A DNA stretch of 64,000 nt from Granulicella sp. S156. GTDB taxonomy: Bacteria > Acidobacteriota > Terriglobia > Terriglobales > Acidobacteriaceae. This document shows, one piece after another, positions 11,106 to 18,971 of the stretch. Every line of letters begins with the position of its first letter. The stretch's first letter is position 1. A program made the translations under genes and the position numbers. Where the stretch lies: contig NZ_LMUH01000025.1 in the NCBI RefSeq assembly GCF_009766105.1, positions 76,358 to 140,357 on the forward strand, read 5' to 3'. A model generated the notes under the pieces. That model was not told where the DNA came from. It searched no databases and saw nothing but the letters and a program-made list of their open reading frames with translations.

Positions 11106-11272
11106 TATGGGGATAGTCAAAAAAAGACCACCTCACACTATCGGTAAAGGTGCTCTCATGCAGATGCACCAGGCTTTTCCCAAAGAAACCAGTACTCGTT
11201 GAGCCTTTCGTGGTTACACGAACATATGATCGGCTCTAAACTATCCACCTTCACTCGGTGTACCGTACTTTC

Positions 11273-13408
11273 ATGCAGCTTCGTTCTCTCGCCGCACTCC
11301 TGGCTCTGGCTCTACCTGCAGCCGCACAGTCCGCATTGCACCTCGTTCCGATGCCGCGCGAGGTTGTGCCCAAGCCTGATCACGCACTGACTAGCGGTGT
11401 GACGGTCAACTGCTCCAGCTGCGATGCGGAGGACAGCTTTGCGGCTAATGACCTGCAGCAGACGCTTGCGGCACGTGGCGTTCCCAGTGGCAGTGGGCTG
11501 CGTATCGTGCTGCAACGCCTTGCGCAGCATCCGGATGCGAGTTTTACGGATGCGATGAAGCCGGAGGGCTACACCATCGTCTCCACGCCCGGGACGATTA
11601 CGCTCACCGGAGCTACTGCATCGGGAGTCTTCTATGCCGCGCAGACGGTAAAGCAGATGATCGAGCCTGCCGGTGAAGGACAGTTCGTCCTGCACGCGGC
11701 CAATATTCGGGATTACCCCGCGATGAGGTATCGCGGCCTGCATGACGATCTCTCGCGCGGCCCGGTCGATACGCTGGAGTTCCAGAAGAAGCTCGTCCGC
11801 ACGCTCGCGGCGTACAAGGCTAACCTCTACTCGCCATACTTCGAGCACACGCAGCAATATGCTTCCAATCCCCTGCCCGCACCGCCGGGAGGCAGCATCA
11901 GCGCCGAGGACGCACGCGAGCTGGTGGCCTATGCGAGGCAGTATCACGTGATGGTTGTGCCCGAGCAGGAGGCGTTTGGGCATCTGCATCACAACCTTCT
12001 CTACGACGAGTATCAGCAGCTTGCCGAGACGCCTCATGGCGCAGTCCTTGCACCCGGCCAGCCCGGCTCGCTCAAGGTGATCTCGCAGATGTTCGGCGAG
12101 CTCGCACAGATGTATCCAGCACCCTTTCTGCACGTCGGCGCGGACGAGACCGTTGATCTCGGACTTGGCCAGACCAAGGCCGCCGTCGATGCGCAGGGCC
12201 TGGGCAAGGTGTACCTCGACTTTATGCAGCAGATCGATACGACGCTGCGACCGTTGAATCGACGCCTACTCTTCTGGGGCGACATTGCGCAGGACTCGCC
12301 TGACCTGCTCAAGGCGATGTCCCCGCAGTTCAAGCGCGACACGATTGCCATTGGCTGGCAGTACAACCCCAACCCGGCGGGCTTCTCAAAGTATCTGAGG
12401 CCCTATGCGGACGCTGGCTTTGAGACCTGGGTGGCACCCGGCATCAACAACTGGTCGCGCGTGTATCCCAACTACAACTACGGACTGCAGAACATTCAAC
12501 AGTTCACGCGCGACGGCCAGCGTGCCGGCTCTACCGGCCAGCTCAACACGCTTTGGAACGACGATGGCGAAACGCTGGCCTCGAACAACTGGTACGGCAT
12601 TCTGTTTGGCGCAGCAGCAGCGTGGCAGCAGGGTGAAAGTTCGATTCCGCAGTTCGAAGAGAACTATGGGCAGGTCTTCCACGGCGATATCACCGGCAAA
12701 CTCAACCAGGCGCAGCTCGAAATCATGGCCGCGCACGAACTGCTGAAGACAGAGTTTAAGGTCAGCGATGGTTCGGACCTGCTCTTCTGGAGCGATCCTT
12801 GGGCCAAAGATCAGCAGCAGAATGCGGCGAAGCTTCGACCCTACCTGCACGAGCTTCGTTTGCATGCGGAGAAAGCGCTCGACCTGATTGCACAGGCCCG
12901 CGCCGCAGCCCCTGCACCCGCTACGCCTACGGTCTATAGTCCGACGAATCAGTTTCCGTCCAACCCCACCACCCTGCGCGAGACTGACGCGATCGACGCA
13001 ATGGAACTCGGCGCTCGCCGCCTCGACTTTATCGGACTGAAGTTTCAGCTCGCCGATGAGATCACCGTAGCCTATGCCCGGGCGCAGGCCACAGCGGCTT
13101 CAAGCGAGCGGAAACCTCATCCCTCGGTCAGCGCGCTGCTCTCTGAGATCAACAGCGTCAACGGGCGGATTCAGGACATCAAGGACGGCTACTCACTGCT
13201 ACGCGATCTCCACGCACAGCTCTGGCTGCGCACGAACCGGCCCTACGCGCTGCGGCCTGTGCTGGAGCACTACGATTACACCGTTGCCCTCTGGCTCTCA
13301 CGCATGGATAAGATGCGTAGCGTGCAGCGTCAGTGGGAAAGTACAAGAACCTTGCCCAGCGCAGCTGATGCGGGCATTCCACAACCGCCCCTGGGATCGA
13401 CAAACTGA
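11273..13408 (+). CDS. Secreted GH20 beta-N-acetylhexosaminidase
   Basis: A 711-residue protein with a signal peptide (MQLRSLAALLALALPAAAQS). The GH20 domain-2 region comes first, including PEGYTIVSTPGTITLTGAT and ASGVFYAAQTVKQM. The TIM barrel then starts at PAMRYRGLHDDLSRG. The catalytic Asp-Glu pair is D291-E292 in FLHVGADETVDLG, matching the H-x-G-x-DE signature. Trp-rich NTLWNDDGE and NNWYGILFGAAAAW belong to the active-site wall. About 200 extra C-terminal residues are helical and unassigned. GH20 enzymes release terminal GlcNAc/GalNAc using the substrate acetamido group. It ends one base before nagA, so the two are almost certainly cotranscribed. The ATG at 11273 gives the cleanest signal peptide. 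Confidence 0.9.
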   Translation: MQLRSLAALLALALPAAAQSALHLVPMPREVVPKPDHALTSGVTVNCSSCDAEDSFAANDLQQTLAARGVPSGSGLRIVLQRLAQHPDASFTDAMKPEGYTIVSTPGTITLTGATASGVFYAAQTVKQMIEPAGEGQFVLHAANIRDYPAMRYRGLHDDLSRGPVDTLEFQKKLVRTLAAYKANLYSPYFEHTQQYASNPLPAPPGGSISAEDARELVAYARQYHVMVVPEQEAFGHLHHNLLYDEYQQLAETPHGAVLAPGQPGSLKVISQMFGELAQMYPAPFLHVGADETVDLGLGQTKAAVDAQGLGKVYLDFMQQIDTTLRPLNRRLLFWGDIAQDSPDLLKAMSPQFKRDTIAIGWQYNPNPAGFSKYLRPYADAGFETWVAPGINNWSRVYPNYNYGLQNIQQFTRDGQRAGSTGQLNTLWNDDGETLASNNWYGILFGAAAAWQQGESSIPQFEENYGQVFHGDITGKLNQAQLEIMAAHELLKTEFKVSDGSDLLFWSDPWAKDQQQNAAKLRPYLHELRLHAEKALDLIAQARAAAPAPATPTVYSPTNQFPSNPTTLRETDAIDAMELGARRLDFIGLKFQLADEITVAYARAQATAASSERKPHPSVSALLSEINSVNGRIQDIKDGYSLLRDLHAQLWLRTNRPYALRPVLEHYDYTVALWLSRMDKMRSVQRQWESTRTLPSAADAGIPQPPLGSTN

Positions 13409-13409
13409 C

Positions 13410-14576
13410 ATGGCCACTACGACACTTACCGCTCGCTACCTCATCACCGACATCGGTTCCATCGAGTTCCCTGTCATCACCCTTTCCAGCGATGGAACGA
13501 TCACGGACATCAGCTCCGACCCTCGTGCGCTGGCGAACGAGCGGGACACGCTCACTGCTGCGTTCTTCGACATCCACACGCATGGCGCCATGGGACATGA
13601 CGTGATGCAGTCCTCGCCCGCAGAGCTCGGCGAGATGCAGCGCTTTCTTGCAACGCGTGGCGTGGCGCACTATCTGCCAACGACCGTCACAGCATCGGTG
13701 GATGCCACACTCAGTGCGCTGGAAGCGCTGGCCAACGCTATCGAGGCTGAGCCGCGCGACGGTGAAGCGCAGCCGGTTGGCATCCATCTCGAAGGACCGT
13801 TTCTTTCGCACGCCAAGCGTGGGGTGCATCCTCCGAACGACCTGCAGCCGCCTAGCATAACGCTCTTCGACCGCTTCCAGAGTGCGGCCCGTGGACACAT
13901 TGCGCTGATGACGATTGCGCCGGAGCTTCCTGGCGCGGTGGGCCTCATCGCTCACGCGCATCGCCAGGGCGTAAAGCTCTCGCTCGGCCACACCAATGCA
14001 ACCGCCGCCGATGCCATTGCGGGGATTGGAGCCGGGGCTAACAGTGCGACGCATACCTTCAATGCCATGCGGCCGCTCGACCATCGCGAGCCCGGCATTC
14101 TTGGAACGGTGCTCGATCCCAGGCCCGATCATGCTCCGCTCTTCGCTGAACTTATCTGCGACGGCGTTCACGTTGCGCCACCGCTGGTACGGCTGTGGCT
14201 CAAGGCAAAGGGGCTGGATCTCGCCATTCTGGTGACGGATGCGATGTCTGCCGCAGGCATGCCCGATGGCGACTACACGCTCGGCCACTTTGCCGTGAAG
14301 GTTGCCCATGGCCGCGCCCTGCTGGCAGAAGATCTGGCCGCCGGCAAAGAGACGCTGGCCGGTTCGGTGCTGACGATGGATCGAGCTGTCGCGAATCTGC
14401 AGCGGTACACCAATGCCCCGCTGGGCGATGCTGCGAGGCTCGCCTCCCACAACCCTGCGGCGATGCTAGGCAGGCCGGAGCTGACGCGGCTTGCTCCCGG
14501 ATCGCTCGCCAACCTCAATCGCTTTGACGCGAAGAATAACCTGGTCGCTACGTATGTTCGAGGTCGGGCCATTTAG
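13410..14576 (+). CDS. nagA: N-acetylglucosamine-6-phosphate deacetylase NagA
   Basis: A 388-residue cytoplasmic enzyme converting GlcNAc-6-P to GlcN-6-P and acetate. Visible family motifs: FFDIHTHGAMGHD (metal HxH), GIHLEGPFLSHAKRGVHP (metal Glu), LSLGHTNATAADA and SATHTFNAMRPLDHREPG (metal His residues), LICDGVHVAP, and LVTDAMSAAGMPDG with the catalytic Asp. It starts one base after the GH20 stop, which indicates translational coupling. The longer in-frame extension to 13074 runs through GH20 coding sequence and is rejected. It completes the catabolic link between released GlcNAc and central metabolism. No GlcNAc kinase or nagB is seen in the window. Confidence 0.95.
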   Translation: MATTTLTARYLITDIGSIEFPVITLSSDGTITDISSDPRALANERDTLTAAFFDIHTHGAMGHDVMQSSPAELGEMQRFLATRGVAHYLPTTVTASVDATLSALEALANAIEAEPRDGEAQPVGIHLEGPFLSHAKRGVHPPNDLQPPSITLFDRFQSAARGHIALMTIAPELPGAVGLIAHAHRQGVKLSLGHTNATAADAIAGIGAGANSATHTFNAMRPLDHREPGILGTVLDPRPDHAPLFAELICDGVHVAPPLVRLWLKAKGLDLAILVTDAMSAAGMPDGDYTLGHFAVKVAHGRALLAEDLAAGKETLAGSVLTMDRAVANLQRYTNAPLGDAARLASHNPAAMLGRPELTRLAPGSLANLNRFDAKNNLVATYVRGRAI

Positions 14577-14597: not shown

Positions 14598-14602
14598 AGG
14601 AG
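14598..14602 (+). promoter_or_regulatory. Shine-Dalgarno AGGAG fixing a TTG start
   Basis: AGGAG lies seven bases before the TTG at 14610. It is the best ribosome site in this gap and decides the start of the 1453-residue fusion gene. Confidence 0.8.
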
Positions 14603-14609
14603 AAAACAG

Positions 14610-17600
14610 TTGCCGAACGAGATTGCCGCACTTGCGTTACTCGAGATACCGACTCGACTCAGGGCCTTCGATCTAACGCTGGTAGCGATCTATCTTGTAG
14701 GCATTACGCTCTTCGGCCTGCGCTTTCGCGGCAAATCCGGCGGCGCCAAAGCAGACCGCTCGCTCAAGAGCTACTTCCTCGCCAACAATACGATTCCCTG
14801 GTGGGCCATCGCGCTGTCCATTGTGTCGGCCGAGACCTCAACCCTGACCATCATCTCCATTCCCGGCGTTGCCTTCGCGGGGGACTTCGGCTTTCTGCAG
14901 GTTGTGATCGGCTATATGCTCGGGCGCATTGTGGTGGCCGCGCTGTTTCTGCCGCGCTACTTCGCGGGTGAGATGCTTACTGCCTATCAGCTCATCGATC
15001 AGCGATTCGGCACTGTGCTGCACAAGGTGACTGCCGGATTGTTCTTGCTGACGCGTGCCGCCGCAGAGGGCGTGCGTGTCTTCGCGGTGTCTATCGTCGT
15101 CGGCATCGCGATTGGGACGCGCGATGTGCTGTCTATCGGGATTATCTCTGCGCTGACTTTGCTCTACACCTTTGAAGGCGGCATGGCTGCAGTTATCTGG
15201 ACCGATGTTGTGCAGATGGCAATCTACGTCGGCGGAACGCTTGTTGCGCTGCTCACACTGGGCTCGCATGTAACGGGAGGCTGGAGCCAGATTCACACAG
15301 TGGCGGCCGCTGCTGGCAAGTTCCACATGCTCGACTTCAGCATGAACCTTACGAAGACCTATACCTTCTGGGCCGGGGTGCTGGGCGGAACGTTCCTCAC
15401 GATGGCCTCACATGGGACGGACCAGTTGATGGTGCAGCGCATGCTGGCTGCGCGTAATCTGCGCGAGTCGCGGCTGGCGATCCTTAGCTCCGGCGTTGTG
15501 ATCTTCGTGCAGTTCGCCTTCTTCCTGCTCATTGGCGTGGGATTGTATGTGTTCTATGGCCAGCACCCTGCGAGCTTTGCCAGCGCCGACCGCATCTTCC
15601 CAACATTTATCGTGCGCGAGATGCCGATTGGCATCGCAGGCCTGCTGGTTGCGGCGATTCTTGCGGCGGCGATGTCGAACCTCTCAGCCGCGCTCAATTC
15701 CCTGTCGTCGACAACGGTCGTCGATTTCTACATGCACCTGCGACCGCAGGCTGATGACCGCGAACGGACGATCGTCTCGAAGTCTTCAACGCTTTTGTGG
15801 GCGCTTGTGCTCTTTGCGATTGCGGTCTACTCCGTGGGCGTGGGCGGGAAAGGCCATGTGGTCGAGATTGGGCTCTCCATCGCGTCGGTTGCTTATGGAT
15901 GCCTGCTGGGTGTATTTCTGCTGGGCACGCTCACGAAGTTCGCGACAGAGATTGGCGCGACCATTGGTATGGTTTGCGGCTTCGTGCTGAATCTTTGGCT
16001 GTGGCAAGGAGTGTTCCCCGTGCATCTCGGACCCATTACGGTTCCACACGTAGCGTGGACCTGGTACGTGTTGATCGGCGCAGTAGCGACGTTCGCCATC
16101 GGCTCGCTCGTGAGCCTGGTCTTCGCGAAGCAATCTGCACGAAGGCCTGCAGTGGCCCTTCTCCTGCTCCTGTCTTTCCTGTTGTCCTTCCGAGGTGCAG
16201 CAGCACAAACGCAAGTCATACCTGCGCCAGACTTCTCTCCCGTCTCCACACTCATCAACGGTGCCATCGCCGCACATAAGCTCCCCGGCGCGGTAGTGGT
16301 CATCGGCCATGGCGGTCATATCGCCTTCGAGCAAGCCTATGGGGCCCGCAAGCTCGCGGGAGAACCCGGCCTCGATGGCACACCTGCGCCTGCCGAGCCG
16401 ATGACAGAGGACACGATCTTCGATATGGCCTCGCTCAGCAAGTGTCTCTCTACGGCGACAGCCGTGATGCAGCTTTACGAGCAAGGCAAGCTGCAGTTCG
16501 ATGACCCTATTCAGAAGTACTTGCCCGACTTCAATGCCACTCACGATGCAGAGCGCGCGCAGGTGACGATCCGCATGCTGCTCACGCATACTTCAGGGGA
16601 AGCTGCTGACGTGAACCAGAAGGATGTCTGGGGACTCGCTGCGCCGGATAAGGCTGAGGGCTTCCATCGCGCGCTGACGACGACGCTGCAATCCGCTCCG
16701 GGTGCGGTGTTTCGCTACTCGGACATCAACTTCATCCTGCTCGGTGATCTGGTAGAAACGCTTAGCGGCGAATCGCTCGACATCTACGCGTTGGAGCACA
16801 TCTACAAACCGCTGGGCATGACGGAGACGCGTTATCTGCCGCTCGCGAAGGCTTGCGGCCCACATCAGGTGGCTGGTTCGGCTATTGTGTGGCAACGACC
16901 ACCGGTGGGACATATGCTGTTTGCCTGTCCACAAGGAACATGGAGCACCTCGTTGCTGCCACGCATCGCTCCCACTGCGCACGACGATGAAGGCAAGTCC
17001 GATCCTGCAACCAACCCCGACTTCGATCGTCTGCTGCGCGGCACGGTGCATGACCCAAGCACACGCCGTATGGGTGGCGTTGCGGGCCATGCCGGTGTCT
17101 TCTCGACGGCACACGATGTCTCGCTCTTCGCGCAGGCATTACTGGACCGCCTCGCCGGGCGTCCCAGCAACTTTCCGCTGAAGCAATCGACGCTCGAACT
17201 GATGACCACGCCCGAGCAACCGGGTCATAGGGCGAATGACCTTAGCGATTCGAACGCCGCGCAGGAGAAGGCTAAGGAAGTGCGATCAGGCAGCTCCTAC
17301 GACCCGCTTCTGGCACCCAGCTATCCCGCGATTTCATCGCGAAGTCTGCGCGGCTTTGGGTGGGACATCGATACAGCGTTCTCTAAACCGCGCGGCGACG
17401 TGTTCCCTATCGGCAGCTTTGGCCACACCGGCTTCACCGGCACTTCTCTCTGGATGGACCCAGGCTCCGATACTTATGTGATCCTGCTGGCCAATGCGAT
17501 TCACCCGCGCGGGAATCCACCGATCTCGAATCTGCGGGGCGACGTTGCGAGCGCCGCTGCAATCGCGCTCCATCTCTACGGCGACATCCCATCCGGTGAT

Positions 17601-18971
17601 CTTCGTACAGAGAGTGATAACGCTCATACTCTTACCGGAATCGACTCCCTCGAACAGCAGCACTTCGTACCCCTCGCCGAAGCCGCTGCTCGCCACAACC
17701 ATCGCCTCAACCTCGGACTGCTCACCAATCAAACGGGCCTGGACGCACACGGTCGCCGCACCATCGACATTCTCGCGAACGAGCTTCCTAAAGCTGTCTC
17801 ATCGGCCAAGCTGACCACGCTCTTCTCGCCGGAGCATGGCATCTTCGGCAGGCAGGATACGACTGCCATCGCCGCAGAGACCGATCCCACAACCGGACTG
17901 CACGTTACGAGCCTCTACGGTGCGAAGGATGCCGACCGCCGGCCCTCGCACGAGCAATTGAAGGACCTCGATGCGCTCGTCATCGATCTGCAGGATGCAG
18001 GAGTTCGCTTCTATACCTATGAGGCTGTCACGGGATACTTCCTCGAAGCGGCGGCGCGTGAGAAGAACGAGTTCCATCACGATCTGGAGATCATCGTGCT
18101 CGATCGCCCCAGCCTCATCGGCGGTGAGCAGGTGCAGGGGCCAGTCTCGGATGCAGGGCTTGAGAGCTACACGGATTACATGCCGCTGCCTGTGCGCCAC
18201 GGGCTGACGCTGGGTGAACTCGCACAGTACATCAACGGCGAAGCCACCTCCACACTCGCTCATAGCGATGCGCTCTTCGCCAGCACTGAGCCCCCGAATG
18301 GCCCGCGCGCTACACACACGCCGTCGAGGCCATTCAGCAAAGGACTCGGCGCGCATCTTACCGTGATCCCGATACAGCACTGGTCGCGCGCCGAGTACTT
18401 CGGCAACACAGGCCTTGCGTGGGTTAATCCCAGCCCCAACCTGCGCAGCCTGACCGCCGCGACCTTCTACCCTGGAATCGGGCTGCTGGAGACGACAAAC
18501 GTCTCTGTGGGACGTGGGACTGCGACGCCCTTTGAACTCTTCGGTGCGGGCGTGCCTGCGAAGGATACTAAGACCGGTGTACAGAAGCCCGTCTGGTTCA
18601 ATGCCGCTGATGTTGCCGCGGCTCTCAACGCGCGACATATCGTCGGCGCCACGTTTGCGGCGACCACAGCCAATGTTGCTGAGGACTCCAACCACTACCC
18701 CTTCCACGGCCAGACCATCGAAGTTGTGCGTATTACTCTTACGGATCGCAAAGCGCTCGATGCACCGGAGATGGGTGTTGAGATTCTAAGCGTCCTGCAT
18801 CGTCTGTATCCAGAGCAGTTTCAGGTCGAGAAGGCCATGCGTCTTGTGGTCAATCGCGCCACCATGGATGCGCTGGAGCGCGGAGAAGATCCGCGTGCTA
18901 TCGCCGGAGACTGGAAGCATTCGCTGGATGCCTTCGTGGCGCGGCGGGCGGCTTACCTGCTCTATCCGTAG
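14610..18971 (+). CDS. Triple fusion: sodium/solute symporter + beta-lactamase-fold hydrolase (AmiE-like) + NamZ/DUF1343 exo-muramidase (GH171)
   Basis: A 1453-residue protein. Residues about 20-505 are a complete SSS-family symporter (FLANNTIPWWAIALSIVSAE, TFEGGMAAVIWTDVVQM, AAILAAAMSNLSAALNSLSS). Residues about 514-537 form a hydrophobic, signal-like segment (ALLLLLSFLLSF then AAAQTQ). Residues about 545-1000 are a class C beta-lactamase-like serine hydrolase with S608-LS-K611, Y703-S-D/I-N and a C-terminal HTGFTG box. Residues about 1013-1453 are DUF1343, now called NamZ: LGLLTNQTG, LFSPEHGIFG, LDALVIDLQDAGVRFYTYEA, PLPVRHGLTLGEL, NVSVGRGTATPFELFG. In B. subtilis NamZ releases MurNAc from non-reducing ends and AmiE strips peptides, beside permease MurP. 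Inference: import, amidase and muramidase steps joined, with the hydrolases in the periplasm. It starts 33 bp after nagA. Confidence 0.88.
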   Translation: MPNEIAALALLEIPTRLRAFDLTLVAIYLVGITLFGLRFRGKSGGAKADRSLKSYFLANNTIPWWAIALSIVSAETSTLTIISIPGVAFAGDFGFLQVVIGYMLGRIVVAALFLPRYFAGEMLTAYQLIDQRFGTVLHKVTAGLFLLTRAAAEGVRVFAVSIVVGIAIGTRDVLSIGIISALTLLYTFEGGMAAVIWTDVVQMAIYVGGTLVALLTLGSHVTGGWSQIHTVAAAAGKFHMLDFSMNLTKTYTFWAGVLGGTFLTMASHGTDQLMVQRMLAARNLRESRLAILSSGVVIFVQFAFFLLIGVGLYVFYGQHPASFASADRIFPTFIVREMPIGIAGLLVAAILAAAMSNLSAALNSLSSTTVVDFYMHLRPQADDRERTIVSKSSTLLWALVLFAIAVYSVGVGGKGHVVEIGLSIASVAYGCLLGVFLLGTLTKFATEIGATIGMVCGFVLNLWLWQGVFPVHLGPITVPHVAWTWYVLIGAVATFAIGSLVSLVFAKQSARRPAVALLLLLSFLLSFRGAAAQTQVIPAPDFSPVSTLINGAIAAHKLPGAVVVIGHGGHIAFEQAYGARKLAGEPGLDGTPAPAEPMTEDTIFDMASLSKCLSTATAVMQLYEQGKLQFDDPIQKYLPDFNATHDAERAQVTIRMLLTHTSGEAADVNQKDVWGLAAPDKAEGFHRALTTTLQSAPGAVFRYSDINFILLGDLVETLSGESLDIYALEHIYKPLGMTETRYLPLAKACGPHQVAGSAIVWQRPPVGHMLFACPQGTWSTSLLPRIAPTAHDDEGKSDPATNPDFDRLLRGTVHDPSTRRMGGVAGHAGVFSTAHDVSLFAQALLDRLAGRPSNFPLKQSTLELMTTPEQPGHRANDLSDSNAAQEKAKEVRSGSSYDPLLAPSYPAISSRSLRGFGWDIDTAFSKPRGDVFPIGSFGHTGFTGTSLWMDPGSDTYVILLANAIHPRGNPPISNLRGDVASAAAIALHLYGDIPSGDLRTESDNAHTLTGIDSLEQQHFVPLAEAAARHNHRLNLGLLTNQTGLDAHGRRTIDILANELPKAVSSAKLTTLFSPEHGIFGRQDTTAIAAETDPTTGLHVTSLYGAKDADRRPSHEQLKDLDALVIDLQDAGVRFYTYEAVTGYFLEAAAREKNEFHHDLEIIVLDRPSLIGGEQVQGPVSDAGLESYTDYMPLPVRHGLTLGELAQYINGEATSTLAHSDALFASTEPPNGPRATHTPSRPFSKGLGAHLTVIPIQHWSRAEYFGNTGLAWVNPSPNLRSLTAATFYPGIGLLETTNVSVGRGTATPFELFGAGVPAKDTKTGVQKPVWFNAADVAAALNARHIVGATFAATTANVAEDSNHYPFHGQTIEVVRITLTDRKALDAPEMGVEILSVLHRLYPEQFQVEKAMRLVVNRATMDALERGEDPRAIAGDWKHSLDAFVARRAAYLLYP

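Follow-up and report, generated by a model that had tools for sequence, protein, structure and literature searches.

Why should a transporter of the SSS family, a serine hydrolase and a NamZ exo-muramidase be encoded in one uninterrupted reading frame? The question is raised by a gene of Granulicella sp. S156 (Acidobacteriota, family Acidobacteriaceae) located in a stretch of 64,000 nucleotides, hereafter the window, that covers positions 76,358 to 140,357 of contig NZ_LMUH01000025.1. A preliminary description, made from the letters of the window alone, had reported an unbroken frame of 1453 codons with a full SSS symporter and a complete DUF1343/NamZ domain. Our analysis bears this out: the frame is open from 14610 to 18971 on the + strand and recurs in many independently assembled genomes, and the Pfam matches of its product (SSF, Beta-lactamase at residues 548-966, NamZ_N and NamZ_C; Table 1) are all above cut-off. 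The gene probably encodes a polyprotein for the salvage of N-acetylmuramic acid (MurNAc), made as one translation product from which cleavage would yield a transporter and a periplasmic enzyme.

The fusion is not an artefact, because the same frame is conserved across independent genomes. A NamZ match was found in 25 of the 28 genomes of the genus, in 22 of these 25 within an unbroken stop-to-stop frame of 1332-1675 codons; in the remaining three, contig ends or frameshifts seem to have broken the gene into shorter frames. The suggested count of genomes that hold all three domains in one gene gave 32 of 34 named loci from Granulicella, Edaphobacter, Bryocella and relatives, the other two coming from metagenome-assembled genomes (MAGs) and being split by frameshifts. 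Among named sequences the closest comes from Granulicella mallensis X5P3 (87% identity in the trimmed alignment). The collection of distinct fused sequences came to 53. Within the family the fusion occurs in the genus groups g1, g35, g67 and in most of g32; a draw of 297 genomes of the phylum yielded no fused symporter relative beyond this clade. In favor of an error of sequencing or assembly one may quote the frameshifts in a few of the MAG copies, but such an error is virtually inconceivable given that dozens of genomes, isolates among them, were sequenced independently and show the same frame, and we regard it as ruled out by the conservation of the frame, the 32 of 34 named loci included.

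The transporter part is a genuine SSS member by both Pfam (PF00474, 132.5 bits against a cut-off of 22.8) and TIGRFAM (TIGR00813, 212 against 184), and its model has the LeuT-type fold (Foldseek match 5nva, TMt 0.83), with the sialic-acid symporter (5nv9/5nva) as the nearest solved relative by sequence as well as by fold; it is thus a non-PTS transporter, i.e. independent of the phosphotransferase system (PTS), and of a different class from the importer of the Bacillus subtilis MurNAc set, as had been proposed. The C-terminal part belongs to NamZ/GH171 (PF07075 and PF20732 over cut-off; Foldseek match 4k05, TMt 0.87) and keeps the PEHG and QD motifs in comparison with 4k05 and 4jja. The middle part is a serine hydrolase of the AmiE/PBP4B kind (S12, class-C fold), identified by its SxxK, Tyr and HTG motifs and by Foldseek. 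Among relatives SxxK (S608, K611) and HTG (939-941) show little or no variation, which confirms two of the motifs originally named, whereas the third, given as YxN, is in fact Y703-S-D, with a conserved Tyr, Asp at residue 705 and the Asn only at 707, as it is YSD in E. coli PBP4B. Loss of active-site residues, which had been considered as a possible objection, was found in neither enzyme. The nearest E. coli relative of the hydrolase is YfeW (PBP4B; 28% identity, E-value 1e-40); however, the protein stays below the cut-off of the PBP4B equivalog NF002968 (142.5 against 385 bits), no AmiE model came up among its family matches, and its solved relatives include esterases. The term 'AmiE-like' is correct at the family level, and the activity may be that of an amidase or of a DD-peptidase.

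The joint between transporter and hydrolase carries the pattern of a signal peptide. Behind the last helix of the symporter, the sequence in the window has the basic stretch KQSARR (K507-R512), a hydrophobic run of about 13 residues (A514-F527) and AAA/Q (530-533, the slash marking the predicted cut; 507-533 in all), so that the signal-like hydrophobic segment noticed earlier is real. By sequence criteria this is the basic n-region, hydrophobic core and small-x-small site of a signal peptidase I substrate. Of the 53 fused proteins, 51 have a net-basic stretch ahead of the core and 41 show the motif [AGSVLIC]xA[QE] behind it; the motif occurs in 32 of 51 unfused orthologues, which have true N-terminal signal peptides, and after 2 of 431 other hydrophobic segments in these transporters, while shuffled tails give 0.19. 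A weight matrix trained on the unfused orthologues separated fused joints from other helix tails with an area under the curve of 0.91. Since the identity per column is low in the joint (mostly 0.1-0.5), it is the pattern rather than the letters that is conserved. The AlphaFold models, in which the domain folds are given and the inter-domain arrangement is unreliable (pTM 0.54 and 0.49), show a 14-residue helix (513-526), shorter than the usual membrane span, and then a low-confidence linker. The linker behind the presumed cut site is variable among relatives; it has grown to ~50-120 residues in loci L090, L135, L138 and L144, with repeat-like pieces (e.g. VQDDKH in L138), and therefore looks free to drift. 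The internal start codon has decayed in the fused genes: ATG is found near the core in 13 of 53, against 18 of 21 unfused ones, ATG with a Shine-Dalgarno (SD) sequence in a single fused gene, and 14 of 53 have no start codon of any kind in a slightly wider range.

A role in MurNAc salvage is well supported by gene context. In three loci of distant Acidobacteriota the same symporter stands among genes of this pathway: in L164 the line consists of a BadF kinase, a gene that encodes a TonB C-terminal domain, murQ, and then the symporter, with hydrolase-NamZ nearby on the opposite strand; in L167 kinase, murQ, symporter, GH3 and hydrolase-NamZ all lie on one strand; and L170 has a gene for an SIS domain together with contiguous BadF kinase, symporter and hydrolase-NamZ. 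In several species of the fused clade the BadF kinase adjoins the gene divergently. The claim of a fused MurNAc-salvage set thus gains support from the murQ, MurK-like kinase, GH3 and hydrolase-NamZ genes found beside the symporter in distant relatives; its other element, the permanent joining of the parts, does not. The genome to which the window belongs has one BadF kinase, whose closest relative in the PDB is a MurNAc/GlcNAc kinase (GlcNAc, N-acetylglucosamine), and two MurQ genes over the TIGR00274 cut-off (G000:C19:935404-936273 and G000:C23:549661-550533); most genomes of the genus are listed with two MurQ-type copies. Besides the fused gene, this genome encodes a second NamZ protein, which stands alone and has ~414 residues (G000:C15:2278-2901; L179:1804-3048, - strand).

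We propose the following scheme. One message would be translated into an SSS symporter, probably for MurNAc, which inserts in the inner membrane and whose last helix would end on the cytoplasmic side, at the short basic loop; there the old signal peptide of the neighboring enzyme would re-start Sec export, and signal peptidase I would most likely cut after A532, releasing a free two-domain periplasmic enzyme. Its NamZ part would liberate MurNAc from non-reducing glycan ends, its hydrolase would strip the peptide from MurNAc or trim stem peptides, and the GH20 enzyme encoded upstream would remove GlcNAc. MurNAc taken in by the symporter would be phosphorylated by the BadF-type kinase, converted to GlcNAc-6P by MurQ and deacetylated by NagA to glucosamine 6-phosphate (GlcN-6P).

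Several points weigh against this scheme. The fused sequences share ancestry, so the joint counts given above are not independent and the Fisher value derived from them overstates significance; 12 of the 53 members lack the strict cut motif; and the window has, just within the hydrophobic core, a GTG preceded by a weak SD. The murQ and kinase genes of the window's genome are present but unlinked to the fused gene, and for several of the distant symporter relatives the fetched stretch contains no MurNAc genes, so that the link between the two is not universal. BadF kinases act on GlcNAc too. As to a precedent for the transporter class, MurT of Tannerella forsythia is reported as a sodium symporter that works with MurK and MurQ (PMC5790795), but elsewhere the same paper calls MurT a major-facilitator protein. 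Because the joint keeps the signal-peptide pattern and the internal start codon has decayed, a single product cut by signal peptidase I nevertheless fits better than a permanently tethered cut-and-import machine. The preliminary description had placed both enzymes in the periplasm by means of a retained segment and had suggested that cutting and import could take place at one site. Periplasmic placement is supported, but the segment looks cleavable rather than a mere anchor, and with a conserved small-x-A/(Q or E) site the mature form is probably two proteins, which does not support joining at one site. If the peptide were left uncut, it would become a fourteenth membrane helix and tether amidase and exo-muramidase to the importer, which could then be handed MurNAc directly. 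One frame has indeed been kept over a large clade, the hydrophobicity of the segment would suffice for membrane insertion, and some members (the 12 of 53) are without the strict motif; we find it unlikely nonetheless, as the cut site is retained at least as often as in true signal peptides although a mere anchor has no need of it, the core is short, and the linker after it is variable and poorly predicted.

A different reason for retaining a signal peptide would be that a start inside the long frame yields some or even most of the enzyme, in which the peptide would still be N-terminal. We consider this improbable and internal initiation a weak reason for the retention: although ATG, GTG or TTG occurs near the core in 39 of 53 fused genes (in 15 with a weak SD), and the window has its GTG, the scarcity of ATG, and above all of ATG with SD, contrasts with the unfused genes, 14 of 53 genes have no start in range, and SD and a basic residue before the core are combined in only 8 of 53. 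The possibility with the largest share of the remaining doubt, though still unlikely, concerns the substrate rather than the joint: the polyprotein may salvage GlcNAc, a sialic-acid-like compound or other sugars, or its hydrolase may be a DD-peptidase or esterase instead of a MurNAc amidase. The relationship of the symporter to a sialic acid transporter, the GH20 and nagA genes upstream, and the affinity of the hydrolase to PBP4B and to esterases would all agree with this. The same chain, however, contains NamZ, which is specific for MurNAc, and in L164 and L167 this symporter has as a neighbor murQ, whose product acts on MurNAc-6P.

The history of the putatively cleavable polyprotein can be followed within the family. 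Most other genera have a hydrolase-NamZ protein of ~800 residues instead; an adjacent symporter gene, where there is one, immediately precedes it with the same orientation, and GH20 often comes before the symporter. Such neighbors overlap by a few bases or share a frame parted by a stop alone (e.g. L100, L105, L146). Hydrolase-NamZ is the old architecture and the added symporter the new one. A tree of the 53 fused and 21 split sets requires two changes, most simply read as a single fusion and a single re-split at a later time. The five g32 genomes of the re-split set fall within the fused ones, a placement that has full support; their halves lie 760-940 bases apart in L113, L114, L116 and L117, with a short gap in L115, and the proteins retain the signal peptide, now with ATG. 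The gene between the halves, at one time guessed to be murQ, belongs to the TIGR03435 family in the two loci examined (L113, L114), and its insertion may have broken the fusion. In genera without a neighboring symporter, a second serine hydrolase gene, a relative of the fused one, stands divergently beside the two-domain gene (L094, L097, L101, L102, L104, L107, L108).

An AmiE/PBP4B-type hydrolase beside a MurNAc importer is also found in the murQ-murR-murP-amiE-nagZ-namZ cluster of Bacillus subtilis, which includes NamZ as well, and in E. coli, where yfeW belongs to the murQ-murP-yfeW operon (PMC5061867). Those clusters consist of separate genes with a PTS importer, in contrast to one frame with an SSS symporter here, and B. 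subtilis uses NagZ where the present locus has GH20, with murQ and the kinase elsewhere in the genome. The murTKQ genes of T. forsythia, adjacent to a peptidoglycan-recycling cluster (PMC10465942), are likewise reported to combine a sodium-symporter-type MurNAc importer with kinase and MurQ, and are separate genes. Two-domain DD-peptidase-DUF1343 proteins were listed in 2008 (PMC2605481); like the ~800-residue form of Acidobacteriaceae they unite hydrolase and NamZ in one chain, but the two-domain form lacks the symporter and has its own start codon and N-terminal signal peptide. A search of the literature, from which most subscription papers were missing, returned no report of an SSS-hydrolase-NamZ fusion and nothing on wall-sugar recycling in Acidobacteria.

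There are few descriptions of bacterial polyproteins in which an internal signal peptide links a multi-helix transporter with exported enzymes. A parallel in the logic of processing is the FbcH cytochrome b/c1 polyprotein of Bradyrhizobium, in which a multi-helix membrane protein runs on into the signal peptide of a partner that faces the periplasm, two proteins being made by the cut, in a respiratory complex and not in nutrient salvage; no supporting text for its processing was found in our literature search. Because split ancestor, fusion and reversal all occur in one family, they provide natural controls by which the value of a fixed 1:1 production or of tethering is testable. Our proposal would also give the Acidobacteria, which are a major group in soil, a MurNAc importer of the SSS type.

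Table 1. Features of the fused gene and its upstream neighbors (window coordinates; residues refer to the fused protein)
Feature	Position	Strand	Remarks
Fused polyprotein gene	14610..18971	+	1453 codons, TTG start; open frame with domain matches
SSS symporter part, residues 1-507	14610..16130	+	Pfam SSF 55-457; probable MurNAc importer, substrate from gene context
Internal signal peptide, residues 507-532	16128..16205	+	predicted signal peptidase I cut A532/Q533
Class-C-fold serine hydrolase, AmiE/PBP4B kind	16251..17507	+	S608, K611, Y703, HTG 939-941
NamZ N-terminal domain, residues 1036-1281	17715..18452	+	Pfam NamZ_N
NamZ C-terminal domain, residues 1286-1452	18465..18965	+	Pfam NamZ_C
GH20 beta-hexosaminidase, upstream neighbor	11258..13408	+	Pfam; own signal-peptide-like N-terminus
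NagA, N-acetylglucosamine-6-phosphate deacetylase	13410..14576	+	TIGR00221 over cut-off

A scan for promoters and terminators gave no signal beyond chance. GH20 and nagA lie directly upstream of the fused gene on the same strand, and nagA probably starts at the ATG right behind the GH20 stop; the TTG start of the polyprotein gene is preceded, 7 bases 5' of it, by AGGAG at 14598-14602.

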